Shown here in pieces: positions 29,283-39,184 of a stretch of DNA of 64,000 nt. The notes under the pieces were generated by a model. That model was not told the DNA's origin and did not search any database. It worked only from the letters and a program-made list of their open reading frames with translations. Both the position numbers and the translations under genes were made by a program. Source of the DNA: Anaerolineales bacterium (GTDB lineage: Bacteria; Chloroflexota; Anaerolineae; Anaerolineales; Villigracilaceae). The DNA lies in assembly GCA_024710905.1 (NCBI GenBank), contig JANJTV010000055.1, positions 1 to 64,000 of the forward strand. Direction: 5' to 3'. Position 1 is the stretch's first letter. Each line of letters starts with the position of its first letter.

Positions 29283-31025
29283 ATGGTTTCTGAAAACGAA
29301 GCAATATTGCATGAAAACGGTCAGTGGCTGTATTTCTCCCGCCCGCTGAAAACCCTCACCGCTTACCAGCCCGGGCAGGTACTGCCAACCTTGCAGATGG
29401 TGGAAGGGTTGGTTGAAACACATGGCTGGCACGCGGTCGGTTTCGTTTCTTACGAAGCGGCCCCGGCATTTGACCCGGCCCTGCAAACCCACCCGGCCGG
29501 GGATTTCCCGCTGGTGTATTTTTCACTATACGATAATCCCCGCGTAATCTCCCTGCCCGCCCCATCTCTGGCGGTTGAGCCAATCCACTGGCAGCCCGAC
29601 ACGACACAAACAACCTACCAGCAGGCCATTCGCACCATCAAAGCCGAGATCGCCGCAGGCAACACCTACCAGGTCAATTACACCCTGCGCCTGCGCACCC
29701 AGGACCTGCACGATCCCTGGCAGGCTTTCCTGCGGCTGGCACAAGCCCAGCAGGCTGGGCATGAAGCCTACCTTGATATTGGTCGCTGGGTGATTGCCTG
29801 TGCCTCCCCGGAACTTTTCTTTAACCTGGACAAGGAAACGATTACCTGCCGCCCGATGAAAGGCACCGTCCAACGCGGGCTGACCCTGGAGCAAGACCGC
29901 TCACAGGCGAACTGGCTGCACCACTCGGAAAAAAACCGCGCAGAAAACGTGATGATCGTGGATATGATTCGCAACGACCTGGGCCGCTTCGCCGAAACTG
30001 GCTCAGTACAAACGCCGCATCTGTTTACCACCGAGCGCTACCCCACCCTGTGGCAAATGACCTCCACCGTCACTGCCCGCAGCCAGGCCAGACTGGCCGA
30101 AATGTTCAGCCACCTGTTCCCCTGCGCATCCATCACCGGCGCGCCCAAAGTCAGCACGATGAAAATCATCCGTCGGCTCGAAACCTCCCCGCGCCGAATC
30201 TACACCGGCAGCATCGGCCACATTGCGCCGGGCAGGCAGGCCGTTTTCAACGTTGCCATCCGCACCGTGCTGCACGACCGGCAGGACGGCAAATCGGAAT
30301 ACGGTGCGGGCGGCGGCATCGTCTGGGATTCCACCATCACGGGCGAATACGAAGAAGCCTTGCTCAAAGCCCGGGTGCTTTCACGCCTGCCCCAACCGCC
30401 CTTCCAGATCTTCGAAACCCTGCTCTGGGAACCCGGCACTGGATATTTTTTACTCGAAAAGCATCTGCAACGATTAATGGATTCTGCTGAGTATTTTGGG
30501 TTTCCCATCTCACGAACAAGCGCCGAAGAAGAACTCTCTCACCTCGCAGCGAATTTCGGCGGGATCCCCCAGCGCACGCGCCTGACCCTCGCAGCGGATG
30601 GCAGGCTGGCGACTGAGTCCGCCCCACTGGGAACAGCCAACAAGCCAGTGCTGGCCGGGCTGGCAAAATCAGCCGTTTCATCAACAGATATATCCCTCCA
30701 TCACAAAACCAGCCAGCGCGATGTGTACACGCAAATCTTGCAGGAACTGCCGAATGCTGAAGATGTCATCCTGATCAATGAGCGCGGCGAACTGACCGAG
30801 TTCACCATTGGGAATCTGGTGCTCGAACTGGACAGGAAAAAGGTTACGCCTCCTGTCAGCAGCGGCCTGCTGGGTGGCGTCTTCCGCGCCCACCTGCTGG
30901 AAAACAACGAAATCACCGAGCAGGTCTTAACGACAGAAGACCTGCGGCAGGCCACAAACATCTTTCGGATTAATTCCGTGCGCCGCTGGCAGGCCGTAAA
31001 ACTGGTGATCGATGAAAAGACTTAA
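29283..31025 (+). CDS. pabB: Fused aminodeoxychorismate synthase component I / aminodeoxychorismate lyase
   Basis: 580 residues in two domains. Residues ~1-370 are a chorismate-binding domain: TYQVNYTLRLRT, PELFFNLDKETITCRPMKGT, EKNRAENVMIVDMIRNDLGR, FPCASITGAPKVSTMKII and YTGSIGHIAPGRQAVFNVAIRT. Residues ~385-580 form a class IV PLP aminotransferase-like lyase domain (FETLLWEPGTGYFLLEKHLQRL, DVILINERGELTEFTIGNLVLEL, PPVSSGLLGGVFR). Together with a glutamine amidotransferase this makes p-aminobenzoate for folate. The fusion is known in several phyla. Translation starts 14 nt from the divergent VanZ gene, with no good ribosome site. Confidence 0.92.
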   Translation: MVSENEAILHENGQWLYFSRPLKTLTAYQPGQVLPTLQMVEGLVETHGWHAVGFVSYEAAPAFDPALQTHPAGDFPLVYFSLYDNPRVISLPAPSLAVEPIHWQPDTTQTTYQQAIRTIKAEIAAGNTYQVNYTLRLRTQDLHDPWQAFLRLAQAQQAGHEAYLDIGRWVIACASPELFFNLDKETITCRPMKGTVQRGLTLEQDRSQANWLHHSEKNRAENVMIVDMIRNDLGRFAETGSVQTPHLFTTERYPTLWQMTSTVTARSQARLAEMFSHLFPCASITGAPKVSTMKIIRRLETSPRRIYTGSIGHIAPGRQAVFNVAIRTVLHDRQDGKSEYGAGGGIVWDSTITGEYEEALLKARVLSRLPQPPFQIFETLLWEPGTGYFLLEKHLQRLMDSAEYFGFPISRTSAEEELSHLAANFGGIPQRTRLTLAADGRLATESAPLGTANKPVLAGLAKSAVSSTDISLHHKTSQRDVYTQILQELPNAEDVILINERGELTEFTIGNLVLELDRKKVTPPVSSGLLGGVFRAHLLENNEITEQVLTTEDLRQATNIFRINSVRRWQAVKLVIDEKT

Positions 31026-31945
31026 CCGGTTCGCAAACGCTTCTGGATCTCGCTCCTAGACTCCCTGACAAACCCCCAAAACTCGGCATGGGCGCGCGGG
31101 AGAGTCTTGTTGCGATGATGGATCAGGTAAATATTGCGATGCAGGCTCATGCCCAGGGTTTCCACCTCCACCACCCGACCCAGCGCCAGCCCGCGCGAGG
31201 CTGCCAGTCGTGAGATAAAAGCCACGCCAAGCCCTTCTTCCACGGCCATTTCAATCGCTTCGGCGTTACCGAGCACCATGCTGATGTTCAGCATATCCAG
31301 ATGGATGTCATGCTGGTGCAGGCCTTCCATAAGCACTTCGCGGGTACCAGCTGATTCTTCACGCAGGATGAGTGGTTCATCGAGCAAATCATCCGGGTGA
31401 ACCTGGCGAAACTTTGCCCAGGGATGATCAGCAGGCACAATCAGAATGACCGTATCCTTATAGAAGCTTTGATATTCCAGATCCGGATTGTCAATTGCCT
31501 TACTCGATACCCCCAGGGCAAGATCACCGTGCATAAGTTTTTCGAAGACCGTATGCCGGCTGGTTACATCGACATTTACCCGTACATGTGGGTATTTTTT
31601 CCTGAACTGGGCAATCAGCCCGGGCAGGATGTACTTCCCCGAAGTAGTGGAACAGCCAATGGTCATCTCGCCGACCACTTCATCGTGCAACGATATCATG
31701 GTCTGCTCCAGCCGGTGTGCCGAGGTCAAAAGCTCCCGGGCCATGGGCAGCAAGGCAAATCCGTGCTCCGTCAAGCGTACGGATTTGCCTGTACGCGCAA
31801 ATAATTTCACACCCAACTGACGTTCGAGCGCCTGGATTGCCTGGCTGACAGCAGGCTGCGAAATGTGCCCAATACGGCCCGCCTGGCTAAAACTCCCCTG
31901 CTCGGCAACCGTGACAAAAAGGTGAAGCGCGTTCAAGTCCAGCAT
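31022..31945 (-). CDS. LysR-family transcriptional regulator
   Basis: 307 residues: winged helix-turn-helix at 1-60 (MLDLNALHLFVTVAEQGSFS, ISQPAVSQAIQALERQLGVKLF) and a periplasmic-binding-protein-like effector domain. VGEMTIGCSTTSGKYILPGL resembles CysB/CbbR-like members that respond to sulfur or carbon metabolites. It lies directly downstream of the rhodanese lipoprotein gene on the same strand but after a terminator, and overlaps the end of pabB by 4 nt tail to tail. It could control the rhodanese-cytochrome genes, though position alone does not show this. Confidence 0.9.
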   Translation of the reverse strand: MLDLNALHLFVTVAEQGSFSQAGRIGHISQPAVSQAIQALERQLGVKLFARTGKSVRLTEHGFALLPMARELLTSAHRLEQTMISLHDEVVGEMTIGCSTTSGKYILPGLIAQFRKKYPHVRVNVDVTSRHTVFEKLMHGDLALGVSSKAIDNPDLEYQSFYKDTVILIVPADHPWAKFRQVHPDDLLDEPLILREESAGTREVLMEGLHQHDIHLDMLNISMVLGNAEAIEMAVEEGLGVAFISRLAASRGLALGRVVEVETLGMSLHRNIYLIHHRNKTLPRAHAEFWGFVRESRSEIQKRLRTG

Positions 31946-32037: not shown

Positions 32038-33771
32038 TTATTTGACAACAGGCAGTTCAGCAGCGATCCAGGCATTCATGCCGCCATTCAGGTTGCGAAC
32101 ATTGGTATATCCCAGGGCGTTCAGGTACATCTGCACCATCGCACCGCGATGACCGGAACCGCAAATCACAACGATCGGTGCGGCTTTGTCGGCGGGCAGT
32201 TGAGCCAGGTTGGCAGGGACGTCATTCACGGGAACAAGGATGGCACCATCGATATGGCCTTTCTCATCCCATTCCGCCTGTGAACGCACATCCAATAGGA
32301 AGGACATCGTGCCGCTGGCGATCTCAGTGTTGAGGTCCGGGGCTTTGACAGAACCAAACCCGGCTTCCGGCAGGTTCAACAGGTAGGCATCCAGGTAGGC
32401 CAGGCGGGTGGCATCCACTTCGGGAGCCGTGCCAGCCACCGGGGCGGCGATCGGGTCGGTCACGAGGGGCAGTTCAGCCCCCTTCCAGCCATTGATACCA
32501 CCACCCAGGTTGACCACATCCGTATACCCAAGCAGGCGCAGGGCCATCATCCCCAGGCCGCCGCGATGACCGGAAGCGCAGGTGATGATAATCTTCTGGT
32601 CCTTGGCGGGCAGTTTATCCAGGTTCTGCAGCAGGGTGCGGATCGGGATATTAATCGAACCGGCAATATAGCCTGTTTCGATTTCGGCGGGCTCACGAAC
32701 ATCGACGATGAAAACAGGCGCTTCAGTGAGCATTTCGTTCAACTTGGCCGAGCTGACCGAATAGTAACCGGCATCTGCGGGCAGGTTGGCGAGAAAATCC
32801 CCCATCTCAACGGGCCAGTTCACCCAACCGACCACGGGCAGGTTGGCATTCTTCCAGGCATTCAACCCGCCGTTCAGGTTGATGACATCGGTGTAGCCCA
32901 ACAGGCGCAGGGCCATCATGGCCATTCCGCCGCGATGACCGGAGGCGCAATAAACCAGGATGGAGGCATCTTTGTCAGCGGGGAGCTGGTCAAGCGTATT
33001 CAGGAAATCAGCGAACGGCAGTAAAACAGCGCCTTCAATATAGCCGTCCTTGTCCCATTCAGCCTGTGAGCGGACATCCACAATAAAGGGATCCTTTTCG
33101 GCAAGGTATTCAGTCACCTTGTCTGCCTTGACGGTATAAAAACCAGCATCAGCGGGCAGGTTGGCCAGGAAATCATTCAGGCTGTTGAATAGCTGCTCAT
33201 CTTCCACAATCGGGGTGCTGATGGAGGCCGCAGCTTCAGGCATACTGCCGGTTTCAAGGGGCAGGCCAGCCTTCACCCAAGCACCGGTCCCGCCGCCCAG
33301 GTTAATCACATTGGTATAACCCAGCATCCGCAGGGCCATCATAGCCATACCACCACGGTGACCGGAAGCGCAATAGATCACGATCTGATCATCCAGGCCA
33401 GGGAGCTTATCCAGGTTCTGGAGCAGTTCGCGCACAGGGATATGCACCGCCCCTGCAATGTAACCATTGGCTTCCAGTTCGGCAGCTTCGCGGACATCCA
33501 CCAGGAAAATCGGGGCTTCGGCCAGGGCTTCATTCAGCTTGGCCGCGCTGATGGACCCGTATGCTTGATCGGGTGGAACAGAAGCCCAGAAACCGGCAAA
33601 CAGGCTGGGCCAATCCGGTGTGGAGGGTTCCACCACCGGGGCTTCGCTGGAAGCAGGTGCTTCCTCAACAACTGGCGCGGCGGTTTCTTCCACTGCGGCG
33701 GGGCCACAAGCGCCCAGCAGCAAGCTGAGTACCAGCGCGAGAGCAAGCAGGAAATGCATTTTTTTGTTCAT
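32038..33771 (-). CDS. Exported lipoprotein with four tandem rhodanese domains
   Basis: 577 residues. A lipoprotein signal peptide ends at C22 (LLLGAC), then a ~30-residue Ala/Glu/Pro linker. Four rhodanese-homology domains follow, each with a VDVR strand and an active-site loop CxSGHRG: C134, C275, C398 and C537. The first three loops read CASGHRGG and the fourth CGSGHRGA. Rhodaneses carry persulfide sulfur on this cysteine, so the protein could bind or pass several sulfane sulfurs at the cell surface. It starts 28 nt after the multiheme cytochrome gene, with AAGGAGTGAACG before its ATG, and almost certainly shares its transcript. Single-domain or tandem-two rhodaneses are usual; four is uncommon. 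Confidence 0.9.
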   Translation of the reverse strand: MNKKMHFLLALALVLSLLLGACGPAAVEETAAPVVEEAPASSEAPVVEPSTPDWPSLFAGFWASVPPDQAYGSISAAKLNEALAEAPIFLVDVREAAELEANGYIAGAVHIPVRELLQNLDKLPGLDDQIVIYCASGHRGGMAMMALRMLGYTNVINLGGGTGAWVKAGLPLETGSMPEAAASISTPIVEDEQLFNSLNDFLANLPADAGFYTVKADKVTEYLAEKDPFIVDVRSQAEWDKDGYIEGAVLLPFADFLNTLDQLPADKDASILVYCASGHRGGMAMMALRLLGYTDVINLNGGLNAWKNANLPVVGWVNWPVEMGDFLANLPADAGYYSVSSAKLNEMLTEAPVFIVDVREPAEIETGYIAGSINIPIRTLLQNLDKLPAKDQKIIITCASGHRGGLGMMALRLLGYTDVVNLGGGINGWKGAELPLVTDPIAAPVAGTAPEVDATRLAYLDAYLLNLPEAGFGSVKAPDLNTEIASGTMSFLLDVRSQAEWDEKGHIDGAILVPVNDVPANLAQLPADKAAPIVVICGSGHRGAMVQMYLNALGYTNVRNLNGGMNAWIAAELPVVK

Positions 33772-33799: not shown

Positions 33800-35203
33800 T
33801 TATGGATTTCCATAAACAGGTGGAATATTGGGTACGATCACAGGACCATTGGCCTGAAGTTCCTCCGGTTTGACCTTATCGGCCGTCAGGAAAAGTTCCG
33901 CATTCCCATGACAGGCATTGCAGGAAGCTGTCTGGGGGGTATTGCGCTGGATATTATGCGGGGTTGCATACGCCCAGGTGGGCAGCAGGCTGAAATTGGG
34001 CAGTAGCTCTTCTCCGTAGTACTGATAAGAGGTTGGCGAAACAGGCACATGGCGAACAACAACATACTCGTAAGGCCGGTGGTAGTTCTGGTTGGGATTA
34101 CGTCCGATGAAAAATCCCATATAGCTCGCTTCGGTCTCAAAGAACGGGTTGCCGGAGGTTTCGCTAATGGCCACATGGCAGCCATCACAACTGGTGTATT
34201 GCACACTATGGCAAACCTGGCAGGACAGCTTATCCCCGTGCAGGGTATGATAGGAAATTGTGTCCTCCGGTTTACCAACCTGCTCATGACAACTTTCGCA
34301 TGACGGAACCTGGGCGCCGGAATACCGGTTGGTCGATTGGAAGGCCGCCTGACTGGTGTCGTGACACTCTTTGCAAGCCGCAGTCGAGTCATGCATATCG
34401 GCGCCGGTGTGGCAGGTTACACAATTCATACGGCCAACCCGGAAGTGCACATCACCGGGGAATCCTTCGTTTTTGCCGAGATATTCATTTCCGACCCGGC
34501 TGCCATGACAGGCCGTACAGTTGCGCGTCATGGACGGGGTCTTGTTGACAACATGCCCGGAGATAAAGCCGCCGCCCACCGAACCTGGCTGGCTGATGTG
34601 ACAGTCGCCGCATGAGGTATGGCAGGACGCACAATGGTTGTCAAACATCTCTTCCAGCGCCGGGTGGTTTTCAGGCACACTTCGGGCATCCAATGCATCC
34701 CAGTAACCACCCAGGGAAGCATGCAGGCTGTCCTCAAAATGCTCGGTAACATTCATGTGGCAGGTCGTGCAGGAATTGTCCGGCCCGCTGCTGGGATCCG
34801 CGATCATATTTGCATGGGCAGTTTCCATATCCGCAGACTGGGTGCCGCCATGGCAGACAACGCATTGAATCTGGCCGTGCACCGTGGCTGAGAATTCCTC
34901 ACCCGTGATAAATACTTTCTCCCATGGCTCCAACGGAGCCACATCGCCCCCTCAGCCAACACCTTTTGATTCGGCTTCGTGGGCCACTTCGGGTACGGCC
35001 AGCAATGTCAATTTTTCCTGATCAGTATGGCAGGCCAGGCACTCATCCACATATTTTGGTGAGGCCGTTGGCGCCGCTGTTGGCGTATCGGGCACATCCG
35101 TCGGCTCAACAGGTGCAGGGGTCTCAGGGATTGCAGCGGGAGCGCATGCCCCAAGGATGAAACTGACCAACAACAGGAAATGCAGCAATCTCGCAAGTTT
35201 CAT
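33800..35203 (-). CDS. Dodecaheme c-type cytochrome lipoprotein with in-frame TGA at codon 84 (candidate selenoprotein)
   Basis: Read through the TGA, one frame gives 467 residues. Residues 1-20 are a lipoprotein signal peptide ending ILGAC, then a Thr/Pro linker and the first heme motif CLACH. Codon 84 is TGA (34954-34952), in the context GVG-stop-GGDVAPLEPWEK. The following 383 codons hold eleven more CxxCH motifs: CVVCH, CTTCH, CASCH, CGDCH, CTACH, CVTCH, CKECH, CESCH, CQVCH, CDGCH and CNACH. A separate product starting at the GTG at 34942 would lack a signal peptide, yet c-type hemes are attached outside the membrane. So readthrough, probably as selenocysteine, is favoured over two genes; a nonsense mutation or read error remains possible. 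Electron donor and acceptor unknown. The tetra-rhodanese gene follows. Confidence 0.75.
34923..34951 (-). promoter_or_regulatory. SECIS-like stem-loop directly after the in-frame TGA
   Basis: After the TGA (34954-34952) come 17 nt, then an apical loop GTT (34934-34932). The stem TGGCTCC / GGAGCCA (34941-34925) is seven perfect pairs, extended by two G-U pairs to 34943 and 34923. Bacterial SECIS elements place a loop with an early G, often followed by U, about 16-37 nt after the UGA; E. coli fdhF is about 17-18. This hairpin meets those points by eye. Alternatively GAGGGG upstream of the GTG at 34942 could serve re-initiation. Confidence 0.6.
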
Positions 35204-35319: not shown

Positions 35320-35398
35320 GGAAGAGATAAGCCAGGCTAATCCTTGCAGGGTAGCCGCACCCCGCATGTTACAATTTGCACGAATAGGAAATGGAAAA

Positions 35399-36769
35399 AT
35401 GACCACTCTTGTTACCCCCGAAAATTTATCTTCATATCCCCCGCCACCGCAGGTACCCGGACTACCGCTGCTGGGCAGCACTATCCAATTCCTGAACCGC
35501 CCAATTGAGTTCTTCCTGGAATGCTACGAAAAATATGGCCCGGTCTTCGGCATCTCTGCGGCCAGCCAGCATTATGTTGTCCTGGCCGGCCTGGAGGCAA
35601 ATCAGTTTTTGGCCCAGGAACGGGATGAGTACCTGACCAGCCGAAAGGTTTTCGGGGAGTTCGCCGCACAAATGGGCTCTGAGAACTTCCTGATCGCCAT
35701 CGACGGACCCCAGCATGCTTACATGCGGAAAGTGATGCAGCGTGGTTACTCGAAAAGCGGCCTCGGCCCGCACTTGAATCAGTTCTTGCGATTGACGCAT
35801 GAACGCGCCCGTCATTGGAAAGTCGGTGAAACGATTTACGTCCGTGACCAAATGCAACGCCTGGTGACCGAACAACTTGGTACAGCGCTGGCCAGGCACT
35901 CTTCCAAGGAACATTTTGAAGCCATTCGCACCTTCCTGGGTACATTGCTGGATGTTTTCATCATCAAGCGCTATCCGCGCGCCATCCTTGCCCTGCCGTT
36001 TTACCAGCAAGCCCGCCGCAAGGTGATGGAGTTTGCCCGCCTGGTATTGGAAGAACACCGCCAGGTCAATCCCGAAGATGCCCCTCCGCCAGACTTGGTG
36101 GACGACCTGCTGACCGCCGTTGATTGGAACGGGAACCCGCTGAAAGAAGGGGATTTACTGGCCGCCACCGTGGGTCCCTTTTTTGCCGGGATGGACACCG
36201 TCGCCAACACAATGGGCTTCATGTTATACGCCATCCTGAAACATCGCGACGTCCATGAAAAAATCCGCATGGAAGTAGAGGAGCACTTCGCAAACGGCAT
36301 CCCCGAATGGCGCGACCTGCCCAAAATGGAAACGTTGTACGCCGCCACCATCGAGACCCTGCGCCGCTACCCGGTTGCCCCCTTTACACCACGCAGTGCC
36401 CGCAAGGATTTTGTCTTTGCCGGGCATCGCATAGAAGCCGGGCAAGACATCCTGGTTATCAATGGCCTGACCCACTTCCTGCCGGAATTCTTCCCCGACC
36501 CGTGGACATTTGACGTGAACCGTTATATCAAGCCACGCCAGGAACACAAACAGGGCCAGGGTGTGTTTGCACCCTATACTCTCGGGCCACACACCTGCCT
36601 GGGCGCAGGCGCCGCGGAAGTACAGCTGATGGTCACGGTCGGGGCAATCCTCCAGGCTGTTGATTTAGAACTGGAACGGCCAGACTACGAAATTGTCACC
36701 AGGGTCATGCCCATTCCTGGCCCAGACCCGAACTTCAAAATCCGCGTGACCGGCCAGCGCAAGCTGTGA
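35399..36769 (+). CDS. Cytochrome P450
   Basis: 456 residues, heme-thiolate monooxygenase. The I-helix oxygen-binding motif is FFAGMDTVANTM, the K-helix ExxR is ETLR, and the heme cysteine is C400 in YTLGPHTCLGAG. The N-terminal PPPPQVPGLPLLGS is a proline hinge without a membrane anchor, so the enzyme is soluble. The ATG at 35399 follows TAGGAAATGG; an upstream in-frame start at 35366 is less likely. No ferredoxin partner is adjacent. Use of O2 supports an aerobic or microaerobic organism. Substrate unknown. Confidence 0.93.
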   Translation: MTTLVTPENLSSYPPPPQVPGLPLLGSTIQFLNRPIEFFLECYEKYGPVFGISAASQHYVVLAGLEANQFLAQERDEYLTSRKVFGEFAAQMGSENFLIAIDGPQHAYMRKVMQRGYSKSGLGPHLNQFLRLTHERARHWKVGETIYVRDQMQRLVTEQLGTALARHSSKEHFEAIRTFLGTLLDVFIIKRYPRAILALPFYQQARRKVMEFARLVLEEHRQVNPEDAPPPDLVDDLLTAVDWNGNPLKEGDLLAATVGPFFAGMDTVANTMGFMLYAILKHRDVHEKIRMEVEEHFANGIPEWRDLPKMETLYAATIETLRRYPVAPFTPRSARKDFVFAGHRIEAGQDILVINGLTHFLPEFFPDPWTFDVNRYIKPRQEHKQGQGVFAPYTLGPHTCLGAGAAEVQLMVTVGAILQAVDLELERPDYEIVTRVMPIPGPDPNFKIRVTGQRKL

Positions 36770-36775
36770 ACCGCA

Positions 36776-39184
36776 TTACCTGCCAGGGATGGTGAAATAG
36801 AACGAAGCCCCTTTGCCCACTTCGGCTTCGGCCCAGATCTGGCCGCCATGCCGGTTAAGGATGCGCTGTACCGTGGCCAGGCCGATGCCCGTACCTTCGA
36901 ATTCATCATCCCGGTGCAGGCGCTGGAAGACACCAAATAATTTATCGACGTATTTCATGTCGAACCCGGCGCCGTTATCCTGGACATAATAAACCACCCG
37001 GCCATGCCGGGCCTGGCTGCCCACCCGGATGATCGCCGGTGAACGACCCTGGGTATATTTAAGGGCGTTTCCAATCAGGTTTGAAAATACCTGCCTGAAC
37101 AAAGCCTGGTCGGCATAGCATGGTGGCAAGTCGGTAATCTGCCATTCAACCTGTCGGTTTTCATTCCCTACTGATAATTCATCGATCAACTCATTAACAA
37201 CCGCCTGAACATTCACTTCCTGGCGTTTCAATTCCTGGCGGCCAACCCGCGAGAACATCAGCAGGCCGTCTACGAGCTGACCCATACGGAGGGCAGCCTG
37301 CCGAATGCGGCCAAGATATTCCTGGCCGGTATCATCCAGCACATCTTCATAATCCCCGCTCAAAATGGACGCGTAACCAATCATGGCCCTCAACGGCGCG
37401 CGCAGGTCATGCGAGACCGAATAGGCAAAGGACTCCAATTCGCGGTTGCTGGCTCCCAACTGATCCACCAGGGTTTCCAGCCGGGCCTGGATCTGTTCCC
37501 GCTGCTTCAAAAGCAAAACCCCCTGCAGGGAGGTGCTGAGCAGCCCGCGCAGGGTATTGGTCAGGCCCAATTGCTCAAGCGGCACAGAAAATGTTACAAA
37601 GCCCAGCCGATCATCCTTGGAATACAACGCTTCGACGATCAGTTCCGTGTGAGAGATATCCCGCCAAGCCTCGGCGGGCAGCAGTTCGGTGGCATTAAAT
37701 CGCAGGCCCCCTTCCGGCAGGCGAGTTGCGTGACCATCGTTCCAGGCATAGATGACCCTGGCCCACCCGGCCGGCTTCTGTGGGTCTTCAAACAACACAA
37801 TATGACAGGCTTGAACTCCCAGGCGGGGCAACTCCATCCCCAGGGCTTCCAACAGGCTGTGCATATCAAAGGCGGTCATCAGGGCTTCGCTGACTTCACG
37901 CATGGCAACAGCGTTGCGCTCGACCTCAATGCGTTTGCGCGCTTCCAGACGCTCGATTTCCTGTCCGAGCATCTGGCGGGCCATTACGGCCAGCTGCCTG
38001 CCCCGCTGCGAATTGTCTGACAGGGATTGTGTGGCATGGAAAAAACTTCGCAAGGCGCTTTGCCAGACAGCCAGTTCGATATCCATTTCTATGCTGCTCC
38101 TGACAGACACCGCAAGCGCTTCAAGGAAACGTTCCCCGTTTGGGCTCGACAGGTCTTCCCGGTAGGCTTCCAGCCAGGAGCTCGCCCAACGCGAGACCGG
38201 CGCCCCGGGAATGTGACGCAGGCTGCGGGTGAGCCCATATTCCACATCTTTTTCGATCTGTTGAACATCTTCCGCAGGGGCCACATCCCTGACGGAAGTA
38301 TTGAGCTCAAAATGGCTGCACCCGCACGACTGGCGCAGGACCAGGCCCACCGGGGAGATGGTCTCCTGCTGTATCGGGTTCCCCATCAATTGGGAGAGCA
38401 GGATACTGGCAGCCTGGCGGCCTTGCTGGTAAGGGGATTGGCGCACCGTGGTGAGCGGTGTCAGCGCAAAGCGCGACTCCAGGCTGTCATCAAAACCGGT
38501 CAGGGCCACATCCTGGGGGATTTTCAACCCAACCTGTCGCAGGACTTGTGCCGCCCCCAGCGCCATGGAATCATTGGCGGACACCAGGGCGTCGAAACCC
38601 AGGCGCGCAGGGCTTCGTTTTGCCAGCCAGGCTTGCATGGCGCGTACGCCCGAGTCGAAGGTGTAATCCCCTTGCAGCACCAATCGTGAACCGGCAGGCA
38701 GGTGATGTTTTTTCAAGGTTTTGAGATAGGCGTTGTAGCGAGTGTCGGACTCCTGCTGGCCACGCGGACCGCGCAAGAAGGCAATCCTCTGGGTATGGTG
38801 ATGGGTAATCAGGTGATCCACCACATCATGAATCCCCTGGGTGCTATCAACCATAATGTGTGGATGGCCGGGAATAGCCAGGGCAATCCCAATCATGGGA
38901 ATGTCTTTGTAGCGGGTCAGGAATTTCAGGATTTCTTCAATCCCCACCGGGTGGGCCAGCGTGCCGCACACGATCAGCCCATTTACATTTTGGGAGGTAA
39001 CCAGGTCGTAAAGCACATTGCGCTGGGCCTCAAAACCATGATACGAACGAAGCGCCCCGCTGGTAAAACAGATCAACTGGGTGTTGGAAGCACGGGTAAC
39101 ATGTGCCACGCCACGCAGGATGGCCGCCTCGTAAGGGTCTTGCGTCGAGCTGATGAGCAACCCAAGGGTGATGGGAGATGTCAT
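36776..39184 (-). CDS. Soluble histidine kinase with N-terminal LacI-type substrate-binding domain
   Basis: 802 residues with no signal peptide or membrane helix. Residues ~1-290 are a LacI/GalR-type periplasmic-binding-like domain (ITLGLLISSTQDPYEAAILRG, GFDALVSANDSMALGAAQVLR, VALTGFDDSLESRFALTPLTTV) without a DNA-binding helix-turn-helix. A helical linker and a GAF-like region (~430-580) follow, then HisKA with phospho-accepting His near 591 (SVSHDLRAPLRAM) and an ATPase domain (NLIGNALKY, DNGAGFD, GTGIGLATVQRI). It likely senses a cytoplasmic small molecule. No response regulator adjoins it. The ATG lies 6 nt after TACAAT with no ribosome site, i.e. leaderless. Confidence 0.88.
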   Translation of the reverse strand: MTSPITLGLLISSTQDPYEAAILRGVAHVTRASNTQLICFTSGALRSYHGFEAQRNVLYDLVTSQNVNGLIVCGTLAHPVGIEEILKFLTRYKDIPMIGIALAIPGHPHIMVDSTQGIHDVVDHLITHHHTQRIAFLRGPRGQQESDTRYNAYLKTLKKHHLPAGSRLVLQGDYTFDSGVRAMQAWLAKRSPARLGFDALVSANDSMALGAAQVLRQVGLKIPQDVALTGFDDSLESRFALTPLTTVRQSPYQQGRQAASILLSQLMGNPIQQETISPVGLVLRQSCGCSHFELNTSVRDVAPAEDVQQIEKDVEYGLTRSLRHIPGAPVSRWASSWLEAYREDLSSPNGERFLEALAVSVRSSIEMDIELAVWQSALRSFFHATQSLSDNSQRGRQLAVMARQMLGQEIERLEARKRIEVERNAVAMREVSEALMTAFDMHSLLEALGMELPRLGVQACHIVLFEDPQKPAGWARVIYAWNDGHATRLPEGGLRFNATELLPAEAWRDISHTELIVEALYSKDDRLGFVTFSVPLEQLGLTNTLRGLLSTSLQGVLLLKQREQIQARLETLVDQLGASNRELESFAYSVSHDLRAPLRAMIGYASILSGDYEDVLDDTGQEYLGRIRQAALRMGQLVDGLLMFSRVGRQELKRQEVNVQAVVNELIDELSVGNENRQVEWQITDLPPCYADQALFRQVFSNLIGNALKYTQGRSPAIIRVGSQARHGRVVYYVQDNGAGFDMKYVDKLFGVFQRLHRDDEFEGTGIGLATVQRILNRHGGQIWAEAEVGKGASFYFTIPGR

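Follow-up and report, generated by a model that had tools for sequence, protein, structure and literature searches.

The extHIJKL genes of Geobacter encode a selenocysteine (Sec)-containing multiheme c-type cytochrome together with the rhodanese lipoprotein ExtH (PMC5877670, PMC6148476), and ExtI, ExtKL, and ExtH have been linked to the reduction of selenite and tellurite (PMC5877670). A Sec-containing member of the octaheme tetrathionate reductase family has also been listed as annotated in GenBank (PMC13188914). Bacterial Sec insertion elements (bSECIS) are described by a model with an apical loop of 3 to 9 nucleotides (nt), an upper stem of 4 to 16 bp, a G within the first two loop positions, a UGA-to-loop distance of 16 to 37 nt, and a minimum free energy of at most -7.5 kcal/mol (PMC13188914).

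Here, we analyze a stretch of 64,000 nt from an Anaerolineales bacterium (the window), in which an initial annotation had proposed a SECIS-like hairpin downstream of an in-frame UGA. Sequence comparison indicates that this hairpin is almost certainly a SECIS element directing Sec insertion at UGA codon 84 of a multiheme cytochrome. Conservation of the UGA, selection at the RNA level, covariation of the stem, the Sec machinery of the genome, and linkage to a rhodanese gene all lead to this reading.

A lipoprotein cytochrome gene with an in-frame UGA

With the UGA read through, the locus forms one open frame encoding a predicted exported cytochrome (Table 1). Sec84 would be its sole “Cys” outside the heme motifs and the lipobox, located in a Gly-rich loop between heme motifs 1 and 2, and neither a UxxC motif nor a partner Cys is present in the window cytochrome chain. 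Pfam assigns cytochrome c7/c3 and MtrC-like domains, and NCBIfam returns weak matches to decaheme families, none of them above the cutoff. The AlphaFold model of the protein has a pLDDT of 85.5 and a pTM of 0.81, with modest confidence in the Sec loop (about 67).

Under standard open reading frame (ORF) calling, the first ORF terminates at the UGA, with a possible restart at GTG 34942. This is what is expected if the UGA is an ordinary stop and the locus is a pair of neighboring ORFs or a pseudogene in decay, the hairpin being a by-product of conserved protein sequence. However, the ORF past the UGA carries 11 heme motifs and has no signal peptide, so that termination at the UGA would, by analogy with c-type cytochrome biology, leave a heme protein incapable of export. 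Further evidence bearing on this alternative comes from the homologs described below.

Table 1. Coordinates of the cytochrome locus and its neighbors in the window
Feature	Position	Strand	Basis and remarks
Exported lipoprotein multiheme c-type cytochrome gene with predicted Sec84	33800..35203	minus	ATG 35203, stop TAA 33800-33802; 467 aa with UGA read through; 12 CxxCH; lipoprotein-type signal, LGAC, lipobox Cys20
In-frame UGA, predicted Sec codon 84, motif G-x-G-U-G-G	34952..34954	minus	One open frame; same site in 143 loci
Putative SECIS hairpin	34924..34942	minus	Fold; frozen wobble positions; covariation; bSECIS loop, stem, loop-G, and spacing rules in 143/143 loci
Hairpin parts	Stem 34942-34935 / 34931-34924; loop GUU 34934-34932	minus	Order: UGA (34954-34952), nine bases GGGGGCGAU, GUGGCUCC (34942-34935), GUU, GGAGCCAU (34931-34924)
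Conserved hairpin core	34940-34926	minus	GGCUCC GUU GGAGCC
Lipoprotein with four rhodanese domains	32038..33771	minus	Pfam PF00581, E=5e-84, four stretches; 28 bp downstream of the cytochrome
LysR-type regulator	31022..31945	minus	Next gene; Pfam PF03466/PF00126
Cytochrome P450-like protein	35366-36769		By reading; divergent from the Sec cytochrome gene
LacI-like/histidine kinase ORF	36776-39184		By reading; next past the P450-like gene

The hairpin in the window

The initial annotation described a stem of seven Watson-Crick pairs, or nine with G-U, and a GUU loop starting 17 nt past the UGA, and our recount and remeasurement reproduce these values. The isolated hairpin folds with an energy of -12.9 kcal/mol. 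At least seven Watson-Crick pairs combined with a loop at 16 to 18 nt are found for only 3 of the 2012 UGA triplets on both strands of the whole window, the Sec84 UGA included, and the local fold energy of the hairpin falls within the lowest 0.6% among these triplets. Single-sequence shuffles are modestly worse (z about -1 to -2, and about -2 for a 40-nt stretch), and when a 61-nt stretch is folded without constraint, another fold is favored in which the UGA itself is paired. Given the modest shuffle score and the competing fold, the window sequence alone is no proof of a SECIS element, and the proof is given by the homologs. Across these, six core pairs are conserved (34940-34935 with 34931-34926), and the outer pairs of the initial annotation show no conservation; the longer stem is thus present in the window but was somewhat overread.

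UGA and hairpin across homologs

We searched four overlapping genome samples, two from the phylum (301 and 400 genomes), one from the order (400), and one from the class (396), and found full-length relatives with identities as low as about 41%. The gene occurs in about one-fifth of the genomes sampled from this Chloroflexota order and class (83/400 and 75/396, respectively). In 143 loci from genomes that are divergent, a UGA occupies the same site, within the motif GxG-U-[GA]G, and the frame is otherwise intact; a few pairs among these loci represent the same genome drawn twice (e.g., L021/L041). An annotation taking UGA as a stop would split the protein in two in every one of the UGA-bearing cases. 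A search of genome contigs yielded one full-length relative (L030) and weak partial matches in Selenomonas. Two partial matches (L217 and L218) were placed neither with the UGA-keeping nor with the UGA-less loci, and L028, a cytochrome of 25 to 29% identity with neither the UGA nor the motif, was treated as belonging to another family.

Applying the bSECIS rules of PMC13188914 by script, we find a hairpin conforming to the loop and stem rules in all 143 loci, the window element having a GUU loop and an 8-bp folded stem. G is the first loop base in 142 of the 143 loci in the common register, and in all 143 when each is read in its own best register. The loop lies 17 nt from the UGA in 139 loci and at 16 to 30 nt in the remainder. 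The window hairpin and most of 83 homologs are below the energy limit (mean, -11.7 kcal/mol; weakest, -6.4 kcal/mol; 27-nt stretch). Had the stem proposed in the initial annotation been absent from homologs that keep the UGA, its reading would have been in doubt; since all 143 loci satisfy the loop, stem, loop-G, and spacing rules, the stem is present in these homologs, albeit weakly in L189, which conforms solely through a 4-bp hairpin at 30 nt. In two divergent loci, L199 and L212, the first 42 nt past the UGA lack the usual hairpin, and a different one appears to have been substituted, which in L212 is CCCGCGCU-GGA-AGCGUGGG with its loop at 20 nt.

Ten homologs are without the UGA, which indicates that Sec is not required in every member of the family. 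They carry Trp/UGG (L071, L072, and L178), Leu (L180), or His (L213) at the site or have lost the motif (L073, L074, L075, L215, and L216), and none of the ten has Cys there. Alignment of Sec with Cys in homologs is usual for selenoproteins and is a common search criterion rather than a defining property, and searches based on Sec/Cys pairs would miss this family, as no Cys homolog was found. In most of the ten, the stem is lost or damaged: nothing comparable to it is present in L073 and L074, the hairpin codons of L213, L215, and L216 are changed throughout, the stem that L071 retains is shifted and lacks the GUU loop, and in L180 one stem pair is broken. L072 and L178 have UGG in place of the UGA and a still intact hairpin, which in L072 includes a double change preserving pair 19/25 by direct reading of the sequence. 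These two look like recent losses of Sec, and the UGG of L178 is possibly a sequencing error.

RNA-level selection and covariation

The codons GTG GCT CCG TTG GAG at positions +4 to +8 show the five lowest synonymous diversities (0.05, 0, 0, 0.025, and 0, respectively) of 172 conserved codons compared across 79 homologs. The next lowest value among the 172 is 0.126, and other codons with at least 4-fold degeneracy average 0.64. The wobble bases of the flanking Gly and Pro codons vary freely.

Compensatory changes in homologs, which the initial annotation had suggested looking for, are indeed found: three stem pairs show double changes over the 143 loci. Pair 16/28 occurs as G-C in 88 loci and C-G in 54, and is unpaired in 1; pair 15/29 occurs as G-C, G-U, C-G, and A-U; and pair 20/24 occurs as C-G and A-U. 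The 16/28 swap forces at least two changes on an IQ-TREE tree from which the SECIS codons were excluded and at least three on a larger, cruder FastTree tree. It is visible in the protein as A-PLE-P versus P-PLE-A/V/G, amino acid swaps that seem to follow from constraints on the RNA. On 28 distinct hairpins, which are related sequences, the covariation score is 0.259, a value reached by none of 500 shuffles, and slid controls score at most 0.094. In the same test, the number of pairs changed on both sides is not above that in the shuffles. The 143 elements with their compensatory changes, amino acid swaps included, constitute a clean natural set of SECIS sequences.

Codons whose silent positions hardly vary and whose changes compensate each other across the stem are at odds with a hairpin that merely follows from conserved protein sequence. 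Together, the conserved UGA and the covariation lead us to reject the ordinary-stop reading, to which we assign a negligible chance.

Sec machinery and genetic code

The genome encodes tRNA-Sec with anticodon UCA (72 bits), SelB (352 bits), SelA (522 bits), and SelD (358 bits). Two of its own genes each contain an in-frame UGA with a hairpin behind it and serve as in-genome positive controls: in SelD (CAG-U-ASK), the hairpin has a GUA loop and lies 33 nt downstream, and in FdhA, it has a GGUCU loop and lies at 18 nt. In the order sample, selB is present in 79 of 83 gene-bearing genomes versus 234 of 317 gene-less genomes (Fisher p=3e-6, uncorrected for relatedness). Three of the four gene-bearing genomes without a SelB match are <90% complete; the genome G665 (locus L114), which has the UGA gene and no SelB match, is 96% complete and 6% contaminated.

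The UGG (Trp) codons seen at the site in L071, L072, and L178 would fit a UGA that is read as another amino acid, such as Trp, through a code change or leaky read-through, with the hairpin as a stimulator that acts without Sec. However, TGA ends 9 of the 47 long nonoverlapping ORFs in the window, and UGA is thus still a normal stop. The complete Sec system, the two further known selenoprotein genes with UGA, the fit of the hairpin to the bSECIS rules (that for the loop G among them), and the co-occurrence of the gene with selB likewise argue against this alternative, which we reject as highly improbable. The SECIS reading of the initial annotation is in turn supported by the covariation, the rule-conforming hairpins of all 143 loci, and the full Sec machinery.

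In this well-supported mechanism of insertion, SelB carrying Sec-tRNA-Sec would bind the hairpin and insert Sec at UGA codon 84, so that the full 467-residue multiheme cytochrome would be made rather than an 83-residue stub.

Rhodanese partner and possible function

The rhodanese lipoprotein encoded downstream retains active-site-like Cys motifs and is a probable operon partner of the Sec cytochrome, with a rhodanese gene adjoining 51 of 53 homologous loci. In one locus (L026:3-2492), a single frame encodes rhodanese domains followed by the Sec cytochrome, and this fusion has an apparent C-terminal transmembrane segment. LysR-like genes also adjoin several homologous loci in the context listing. 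In the Chloroflexi genome G434 (L136:2151-5235), genes for an octaheme cytochrome, a 4Fe-4S ferredoxin-like protein, and NrfD lie directly beside the Sec cytochrome, and by the gene listing, similar genes appear to be present in L133 and L137. Such neighbors suggest a quinol-driven electron supply in some lineages.

By analogy with ExtI/ExtKL/ExtH of Geobacter, the cytochrome may act as an extracytoplasmic chalcogen reductase, with sulfane sulfur or oxyanions of selenium or tellurium as substrates, a role that we put forward as a best guess at somewhat less than even odds. Sec84 would then be a reactive nucleophile outside the cytoplasm, to which the partner rhodanese could present sulfane sulfur (or oxidized selenium/tellurium), and electrons passing along the heme chain would release sulfide or selenide. 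Quinol would be the electron source where the NrfD/ferredoxin/octaheme module adjoins.

Alternatively, Sec84 may be inserted and not act as a catalytic nucleophile, serving instead as an unusual ligand of a heme or as a site where the electron-carrying cytochrome binds a metal(loid). Both the missing partner Cys and UxxC motif and the position of Sec, 29 residues past the first Cys of the preceding heme motif in 99 of 142 loci, are in keeping with such a role. We nevertheless regard it as rather unlikely, since the persistence of the rhodanese partner across loci suggests chalcogen transfer chemistry.

Comparison with known systems

Like the Escherichia coli fdhF SECIS and the bSECIS consensus (PMC13188914, Fig. 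2), the window element lies within coding sequence and has a small G-led loop, a UGA-to-loop distance of about 17 nt, and an energy below the limit. It differs in its GUU triloop and in a core of only six pairs; the genome's own FdhA element, by comparison, has a GGUCU loop.

At the protein level, the best sequence-profile match is to the DmsE/MtrA-type decaheme cytochromes (TIGR03508, E=5e-10), with which the window cytochrome shares extracytoplasmic electron transfer as a predicted function. However, the match scores 39 bits against a cutoff of 192, and Sec lies outside the definition of that family. Foldseek finds no match in the PDB at E<=0.001. With VIA-align, the best structural match of the model is the octaheme tetrathionate reductase 1sp3 (Z, 9.5; rmsd, 4.0; 257 residues), a possible similarity in overall fold; the next VIA-align matches are far weaker. 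The window family has eleven invariant heme motifs, in contrast to the eight of the reductase, and its Sec-bearing N-terminal loop lies beyond the stretch aligned to 1sp3. Octaheme tetrathionate reductase has a Lys-ligated active-site heme (CxxCK), and no CxxCK motif is found in the window cytochrome. The corresponding profile, TIGR04315, gives weak matches in 7 of 54 family members and is absent from the matches of the window protein at E<=1.

The window family is not seen in the 119-entry selenoprotein inventory of PMC13188914. Our literature search on Anaerolineae, selenocysteine, and multiheme cytochromes, with subscription literature outside its scope, returned nothing but one unrelated co-mention. 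We use the term “uncatalogued” relative to NF040886, the NCBIfam cutoffs, and the PMC13188914 inventory, with RefSeq protein names outside this scope.

The closest resemblance in general layout is to ExtKL (NF040886), in that both pair an exported Sec-containing multiheme c-type cytochrome with a nearby rhodanese lipoprotein gene, ExtH in Geobacter (PMC5877670, PMC6148476). This layout would be expected if the window protein were an ExtKL-type cytochrome of the extHIJKL family and no separate family existed. However, a search with the NF040886 model leaves the window gene unmatched even at E<=10, and on this basis we reject ExtKL membership as improbable. ExtKL is also a pentaheme protein with its UGA past the heme-bearing part, whereas in the window family the UGA follows heme motif 1 and precedes 8 to 12 CxxCH motifs; in addition, no porin-like gene is seen beside the window cytochrome. 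Taken as a whole, the locus may represent an uncatalogued, (nearly) obligate-Sec multiheme reductase family, a proposal to which we give a little less than an even chance. It would have no Cys form, would act together with a multirhodanese lipoprotein outside the cytoplasm, with sulfane sulfur or oxyanions of selenium or tellurium as substrates, and would be widespread in one Chloroflexota class and separate from ExtKL/ExtH. It would then constitute a second rhodanese-linked Sec multiheme cytochrome system besides that of Geobacter.
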